From Fictibacillus phosphorivorans (GTDB taxonomy: Bacteria > Bacillota > Bacilli > Bacillales > Fictibacillaceae), in assembly GCF_001629705.1 (NCBI RefSeq), contig NZ_CP015378.1, forward strand, positions 1,178,001-1,242,000: a DNA stretch of 64,000 bases. Direction: 5' to 3'. Below are positions 575 through 22,982 of the stretch, piece after piece. Numbering within the stretch: position 1 is the stretch's first letter; every line of letters starts with the position of its first letter. The notes beneath the pieces are model-generated. The model made no database searches and was not told where the DNA came from. It was given only the letters and a program-made list of their open reading frames with translations. The position numbers were made by a program, and so were the translations under genes.

Positions 575-1276
575 TTATTTCTTAGGAATTTCACAGCCGT
601 CATCGTCACAGCTCATTCCATCTTCATTGTTTAGAAAAGTGATTTTGTTTTCAGCTATTATTTTGTTCAAGGCTTGTACAAAAACATCAGTCGGCTGTGC
701 ACCAGTTAGCGCATATTTTTTGTCTATGAGATAGAAGGGTACACCTGTTACTCCATAGGCTTTTGCTGTTTCTTCATCAGCTCTAACCTCATCAGCCATC
801 TCATCGCTAGAAAGCATCTGTATGACAGCTTCTCTATTTAAACCAACATCTTCTGCTAGGTCTGCTAAAGTTTCATGATCCCCTATATGTTTGGATTCTG
901 TAAAAAAGGCGTATAAAATGCGTTCTGTCATCTCCTGCATCTTACCTTCCTTTTTAGCAAGCATCGTCAAACGGTGAGCATCAAAGGTATTGGTTAAGAT
1001 CATCGTATCCATCTGATACTCTAGTCCAGATTCCTTCGCCATTTGTATCACGTTTTGCGTGTTTGCTTTAGCAGCGTCTATACTCATGCCATATTTTTTA
1101 GATAATTTTTCATAGATGTTTTCGTTAACGTCACGTTCCATTGTAGGATCCAGTTCGAAGCAGCGATACGTTACTTCAACGGGATGGTCAATCTTTTTAA
1201 TAGCGTCCTCCAGACGCTTTTTGCCAATATAGCAGAATGGTCAAGCAAAGTCTGTCCACATTTCGATGTGTAACAT
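575..1276 (-). CDS. FrnE/YwbO-type DsbA-family thiol-disulfide oxidoreductase with in-frame TGA at the first active-site Cys (candidate selenoprotein or nonsense mutant)
   Basis: Reading from the ATG at 1276, which has a GGGGGG ribosome site about 6 nt upstream, the frame gives MLHIEMWTDFA, then TGA (1241-1243), then PFCYIGKKRLED, and continues without another stop to 575 (233 codons, the usual FrnE length). The family motif here is CPFC, so TGA stands exactly where the nucleophilic cysteine belongs and the second Cys is intact. The rest is typical: a helical insert and the VTGVPFYLIDKKYALTGAQ cis-Pro region. A distal CDDDGC pair ends the protein. Internal starts such as the ATG at 1141 would lose the thioredoxin active site. 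Proteins of this family are cytosolic DsbA-fold oxidoreductases. Either UGA is read as selenocysteine, helped by a hairpin just downstream, or this is a nonsense allele or sequence error. Confidence 0.75.
1202..1218 (-). promoter_or_regulatory. SECIS-like hairpin downstream of the in-frame TGA
   Basis: On the minus strand AGCGTC and GACGCT form a perfect 6-bp stem around the loop TGGAG. The loop starts 28 nt after the TGA and has G at its second position. Bacterial SECIS elements sit inside the coding region just after UGA, with a small G-containing apical loop, so position and shape fit. The hairpin also encodes the ordinary residues KRLEDA, so chance is possible. Confidence 0.4.
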
Positions 1277-1330
1277 TGTAATCCCCCCAATTTATTGTTT
1301 CATCCATAGTATATAAGGATTCGAATATTT

Positions 1331-22572: not shown

Positions 22573-22600
22573 ATTTCTTATCGTAAAACTTTAAAATTTT

Positions 22601-22745
22601 TCCATGACCGCTGAATCCATTTTTGGAACGGAGGAACCATCGGCAGTTTTTTATTGCCTGGGGTGAAACTTATTAAGTCGGGCGACTTCTGCCGTCCGAA
22701 CCCGTCAGCTAACTTCGTAAGCGTGGTAGGAGAGGGAAGGTGAAC
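22601..22745 (+). ncRNA. c-di-AMP riboswitch (ydaO class), first of a tandem pair
   Basis: The conserved ydaO blocks occur in order: GGAGGAACCAT (22630), CTGGGGTGAAAC (22658), GGGCGACTT (22680), CCGAACCCGTCAGC (22696-22709) and TAACTTCGTAAGCG (22710-22723), then a G-rich 3' strand. ydaO-class RNAs bind two c-di-AMP molecules and usually switch K+ and cell-wall genes off at high c-di-AMP. No terminator separates this aptamer from the second one. The boundaries are approximate. Confidence 0.88.
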
Positions 22746-22795
22746 ATTAACAAAGAGTAATGACAACTTAAAATATGATATTTATATCATGCGTC

Positions 22796-22942
22796 TTTAT
22801 CGCTTAATTCCTAAAACTTTTAGGAAGCGGGGGAACCAATCGCAGTCCAACGTGACTGCATGGGGTGAATCTCGAGAGATCGAGTAGGGCTACTCTCAAG
22901 CCCGAATCCGTCAGCTAACTCCGTAAGCGTTCAGAGAGAGGC
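22796..22942 (+). ncRNA. c-di-AMP riboswitch (ydaO class), second of a tandem pair
   Basis: A near-consensus copy: ATCGCTTAAT at the 5' side, GGGGGAACCAATC (22829), TGGGGTGAATC (22861), AGTAGGGCTACTCTC, CCGAATCCGTCAGC (22902-22915) and TAACTCCGTAAGCG (22916-22929), closing with AGAGAG. The identical core block lies 206 bases after that of the first aptamer. A terminator and a potential alternative pairing (GGCAACAAA at 22940 with TTTGTTGCC at 23022) follow, giving an expression platform. Confidence 0.95.
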
Positions 22943-22982
22943 AACAAATTTCGTGTATTCACACGCTTATTCAAGTATGTGT

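Follow-up and report, generated by a model that had tools for sequence, protein, structure and literature searches.

DsbA-like selenoproteins with a UxxC active site have been known as a kind since 2005, when, according to the excerpts available from the original paper, nine such sequences belonging to COG2761 and PF01323 were described (PMC1088965). In excerpts from later sources, four DsbA-like selenoproteins appear in a 2006 table, in a paper that gives three selenoproteins of three families for the Bacillales (PMC1794560), 45 in 41 organisms appear in a 2016 table (PMC5029168), and the family is included in a 2026 review (PMC13188914). For the FrnE proteins, the available parts of PMC8945050 state that many members, but not all, carry a C-terminal CX4C, that a bond between Cys244 of one molecule and Cys22 of a second was observed in Deinococcus radiodurans FrnE, and that the CX4C tail was proposed to act in regeneration. 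The gene that we describe here, from Fictibacillus phosphorivorans, resembles the 2005 sequences in its predicted selenocysteine (Sec) at the first CxxC position, its DsbA domain, and its SECIS-like element past the UGA, and it differs in source, as those sequences, in the same excerpts, were marine metagenome reads (PMC1088965). Our literature search found no description of DsbA selenoproteins in Bacillaceae or of FrnE-like selenocysteine proteins; COG2761 was found as a selenoprotein only in the 2005 paper, and the portions available of PMC2398784 and PMC9312934 contained nothing on this FrnE group. What appears to be undescribed is a Bacillaceae-wide predicted Sec subfamily, whose members are often entered in databases as 217-residue proteins that lack the active site, and a second predicted Sec FrnE-like paralogue in relatives.

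The window (the whole stretch of DNA analyzed, 64,000 nucleotides long) contains a minus-strand frame that reads MLHIEMWTDFA, an internal stop, PFCYIGKK, and onward to EIPKK and the terminal stop (Table 1). The internal stop is a TGA and the only one in the frame, and it lies where the sequence-only reading had placed it, at the catalytic cysteine of a FrnE/DsbA-type gene. With the TGA translated as a residue, the protein matched the Pfam model DSBA (PF01323) at 151.9 bits over residues 4 to 203; a search of NCBIfam returned no models above the cut-off. The protein aligned over residues 2 to 231 with Streptomyces coelicolor SCO1869 (3gl5; E value, 1e-47) and over residues 2 to 232 with D. radiodurans FrnE (PDB 5cnw; E value, 1.9e-44), and in both the TGA residue was aligned to the first Cys of CPWC. 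These two proteins share the CPxC site and the CX4C tail with ours but have Cys in place of its predicted Sec. A DsbA domain with full-length FrnE similarity, a CXXC active site whose first Cys is replaced by predicted Sec, and a C-terminal CX4C are all features of the FrnE subfamily, which we take to be COG2761. A cytoplasmic location is a further trait of the subfamily, and with the active site beginning at residue 12, there would be little room for a signal peptide. The inverted repeat past the stop codon was outside our scan's list, as its loop of 9 exceeds the scan's loop limit of 8. Rfam gave no matches on the gene at gathering score, and the promoter scan found sites no more frequently than in its shuffles. 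A plasmid search gave no result.

Table 1. Positions within the window of the predicted selenoprotein gene and its associated elements
Feature	Position	Strand	Details
FrnE-type DsbA-family selenoprotein gene (predicted)	575..1276	minus	233 residues plus stop; frame, Pfam, and structure matches
Predicted Sec codon, in-frame TGA	1241..1243	minus	Residue 12, nucleophile of UPFC
Predicted resolving Cys15, codon TGC	1232..1234	minus	TGC in 118/118 distinct Sec genes
Ribosome-binding site GGGGGG	1283..1288	minus	Before ATG at 1274-1276
SECIS-like hairpin AGCGTC-TGGAG-GACGCT	1202..1218	minus	Stem conservation, folding, covariation
Possible small hairpin UGCUA-UAU-UGGCA, between TGA and SECIS stem	1222..1234	minus	Folds, conserved
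C-terminal CX4C, Cys223 and Cys228	593..610	minus	CDDDGC, residues 223-228
Terminator-like inverted repeat, just past stop codon	521..555		Read by eye

An in-frame UGA where homologues have a redox Cys is a defining feature of selenoproteins and was found here. The sequence-only reading had proposed comparing this codon with that of sister strains, and TGA was present in 17 of the 18 genomes of the same genus. Among 60 relatives, 55 had a match at an E value of 0.001 and 20 had TGA at the nucleophile codon, these being the 17 genus members and three others. The 18th genome of the genus (G017) has both selB and tRNA-Sec, and its best match is a Cys homologue that is 48% identical. At named loci, 106 of which were confirmed, TGA was found in all of the best 80 that were kept (79 by script and L135 by eye), although these 80 are biased to near relatives and do not measure frequency. 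The kept loci bear the names Fictibacillus, Neobacillus, Mesobacillus, Cytobacillus, Rossellomorea, Peribacillus, Aquibacillus, Halalkalibacter, Planomicrobium, and Planococcus, among others, and loci that are 95 to 96% identical are named Fictibacillus. In two records, Chryseobacterium sp. ISL-80 (L091) and Pseudomonas sp. ISL-84 (L111), the Sec gene nests among those of Bacillaceae, and because of this nesting the records are probably misnamed or the contigs foreign.

In a sample of 397 genomes of the order, 308 had a match at an E value of 1e-50 and at least 54 had the TGA form, the codon of each of the 54 being read from the DNA; matches were listed down to an E value of about 3e-68, and the weakest TGA form counted was at 6.5e-89. 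Four genomes flagged as having one TGA (G057, G100, G264, and G217; loci L036 and L211 to L213) proved to have Cys at the CxxC codon and were left uncounted. Altogether, the same TGA recurred in 118 distinct genes whose frames were otherwise open, except for an early TAG in the tail of L199. If an ordinary Cys-type FrnE gene had suffered a nonsense change or been miscalled at one base, exactly such a lone TGA, one base from a Cys codon, would be expected, and other genes of the window looked damaged to the sequence-only reading. Yet read error does not explain a TGA shared by 118 distinct genes and by 17 of 18 genus genomes, and we rejected both decay and read error on account of this recurrence across species, giving them almost no credence.

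Downstream of the TGA, the hairpin geometry noticed earlier held up: the 6-bp stem begins 22 nt past the TGA, and the loop, UGGAG, begins 28 nt past it and has G at its second position. This agrees with the bacterial signal as worded in the available excerpts of PMC1088965, a stem-loop just downstream of the UGA with a G in its small apical loop. Folding of the single sequence was weak evidence (z score, −2.1; equaled by 5 of 200 shuffles), and it is conservation across relatives, not this fold, that sets the hairpin beyond chance. Of 77 distinct Sec windows, 70 had the complete six-pair stem and 7 had five of its pairs, whereas the 10 Cys windows had one to four pairs and never the full stem. 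Across 76 distinct Sec windows, 97.1% of the cells of a two-helix structure paired, 28 cells were changed on both sides (shuffle mean, 2.3), and the covariation score was reached by none of 500 shuffles. Two of the five measures were unremarkable (27 of 500 shuffles reached that for double-changed pairs, and 317 of 500 that for pair types), and a separate fold had a small covariation term (−0.43). The double changes were from G-C to A-U at two pairs, both within the SECIS stem, and the lowest pair of this stem failed in 12 of the 76 windows. In the possible small hairpin upstream, no pair was changed on both sides in these windows. The Sec form of Bacillus sp. ZZV12-4809 (L135) has a Gly-to-Val change six codons past the TGA, which breaks one pair of this small hairpin.

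Codon usage behaved similarly. Mean relative synonymous entropy was 0.41 in codons 1 to 15 versus 0.80 in codons 16 to 59 of the 118 Sec genes, and the corresponding values for 30 Cys genes were 0.79 and 0.85. In all 118 Sec genes, codon +10 is CTG and codon +3 is TGC. Taken with the conservation of the stem, these near-frozen synonymous codons point to a constraint on the RNA of the Sec genes. Such a constraint, seen in the Sec genes and absent in the Cys genes, argues further against decay or a sequencing error.

The database entries present the gene differently. The window's own entry (P0001) and a second F. phosphorivorans entry (P0004), found in NCBI, UniRef, and nr, are 217 residues long and start at an ATT codon after the UGA, read as M. 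Among the 120 database matches listed (of 3,236), 101 covered no more than 93% of the query, and in 14 proteins that we fetched, the codon was given as W in five and as C in five, while four started past it. If the starts of P0001 and P0004 were correct, the 217-residue form would be the real protein and the UGA would terminate nothing. However, this form has no active site, a free-standing downstream start leaves both the invariant TGA and the hairpin unexplained, and a start 9 to 12 codons before the TGA together with a Shine-Dalgarno-like word (from a permissive word list) was kept in all 118 Sec genes; in F. phosphorivorans, the ATG is 11 codons 5′ of the TGA. We consider the short form exceedingly improbable as the product of this gene. 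As many Bacillaceae entries are without the active site, annotation and the models derived from it miss the chemistry of the enzyme.

The source genome, a single contig of 4,230,665 bases, contains all four components of the Sec machinery that the sequence-only reading had named: selA (544.9 bits), selB (372.7 bits; cut-off, 242.25), selD (406.3 bits), and selC, a tRNA-Sec with anticodon tca (58 bits; gathering score, 47), clustered inside about 9 kb. The selD gene (L161, G000:C1:1803200-1804760, minus strand) itself has an in-frame TGA, within SSKGGUGCK, and is a predicted second selenoprotein of the genome. Two formate dehydrogenase alpha genes scored above the cut-off and have no internal stops; besides selD, the FrnE gene was the only TGA gene found in our search of the genome, which was not exhaustive. 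The presence of selB and tRNA-Sec coincided, both being found in the same 46 of the 60 related genomes. Across the order, selB was above the cut-off in 179 of 397 genomes, which contradicts the earlier statement that selenocysteine is rare in Bacillaceae.

Full selB was found in 53 of the 54 TGA genomes versus 126 of the 343 others (Fisher P value of about 1e-19, with kinship ignored). In the 54th (G230), an assembly of 480 contigs, selB was matched only in its C-terminal part (model positions 261 to 579), at 67 bits, a score below the cut-off. Bacteria are known to read through UGA, and the codon might be read by a near-cognate tRNA (for Trp or Cys) with the hairpin merely aiding the process; as selB is so common without this TGA, its co-occurrence with the codon is not proof by itself. 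Nevertheless, near-cognate reading does not account for a codon placed exactly at the redox nucleophile, and the presence of a tRNA-Sec with a UCA anticodon, as well as of full selB in nearly every carrier, also speaks against it. We regard it as very unlikely.

The conserved UGA at the nucleophile, the conserved downstream hairpin, and the genome's Sec machinery support the reading first proposed from the sequence, and we assign a probability of roughly 95% to the prediction that the product of this gene is a thiol-disulfide oxidoreductase of the FrnE type with selenocysteine as its nucleophile. By analogy with what is known of Sec incorporation in bacteria, the Sec-tRNA(UCA) would be made by SelA and SelD, and SelB would carry it and bind the GG-containing hairpin loop, so that the UGA would be read as Sec and not as a stop. 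In the enzyme, judging from D. radiodurans FrnE, Sec12 would attack the disulfide of a partner and Cys15 would resolve the mixed bond; regeneration of the site may be aided by the Cys223/Cys228 pair, which probably belongs to a second molecule. When selenium is absent, translation would mostly end after 11 residues.

Cys FrnE homologues from the same order (L036 to L045, L169, and L211 to L229) are like the Sec gene in fold and in having CPFC at the corresponding site, and the CX4C tail is present in 25 of 27 Cys homologue rows. They differ in their free use of synonymous codons and, in the 10 windows compared, in having no six-pair hairpin. Among the Sec rows, the CX4C pattern is missing from the tail in 21 of 137 (counted as loci, with duplicates kept), and the tail step is thus not general. 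We built a tree of the 118 Sec and 30 Cys genes, taken from DNA, and five database proteins, using a quick method with SH-aLRT support only and no bootstrap; many of the Cys branches are long. A branch with an SH-aLRT value of 99 separated all 118 Sec rows from the Cys genes. The Sec/Cys label needs six changes on the tree because the five database proteins, all with C at this position (P0015, P0019, P0021, P0078, and P0090), also fall inside the Sec side; these could be Sec-to-Cys reversals or cases of U stored as C. One genome (G173) has both a Sec and a Cys member, which indicates that the Sec form is a subfamily and not a base change in a common gene.

A second FrnE-like paralogue, which in the source genome has Cys (L171 and L246), offers a parallel case. 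Members at an E value of 1e-55 were found in 68 of the 397 genomes of the order. TGA stands at the CxxC nucleophile at loci L162 to L164, L166 to L168, L238 to L240, L250 to L254, L257, L262, and L264, and the motif is UPYC or UPFC in G011, G007, G019, G050, G052, and G022. Thirty loci were kept, with G000 and G007 included; 27 of these could be read, 11 with TGA and 16 with Cys, and three were off pattern. The sequence GCGGAG followed by a TCCGC arm occurred in all 11 TGA windows, while GCGGAG occurred in none of the 16 Cys windows, and the hairpin that these arms form differs from the SECIS-like hairpin of the gene in our window. Within the genus of the source genome, some species have TGA in the paralogue and others have Cys; it allows Sec and Cys species to be compared inside one genus. 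The paralogue at L168 (G022:C17:167710-168682) has TGA and the hairpin, and in its genome we found no selB above the cut-off and no tRNA-Sec; this absence may reflect an assembly gap or a recent loss of the machinery. The copy at L166 (G052:C28:230862-231912) has a second in-frame TGA, at the position of the Trp of its relatives in EVEWMPFE, and is possibly damaged.

As a candidate client of the Sec machinery, the FrnE gene could account for the retention of selenocysteine in these bacteria. We suggest, tentatively and with considerable doubt, that the two FrnE-type Sec subfamilies, each with its distinct hairpin, might be a main reason that the Sec machinery persists in many aerobic Bacillaceae, and that the recoding signal may in addition be bipartite, its other part being the small conserved hairpin that lies past the UGA and before the SECIS stem. 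The subfamily allows Sec and Cys to be compared in one redox enzyme family, in well-known culturable bacterial genera.

In the window, a scan for reading frames interrupted by TGA alone gave 49 candidates, with this gene among the 24 listed. Eight other TGA-split candidates were compared with Pfam; six had no match, and in two the domain lay entirely past the TGA. Elsewhere in the window, on the plus strand, are tandem c-di-AMP (ydaO/yuaA) riboswitch aptamers at positions 22599 to 22739 and 22791 to 22945 (97.4 and 99.8 bits, respectively).
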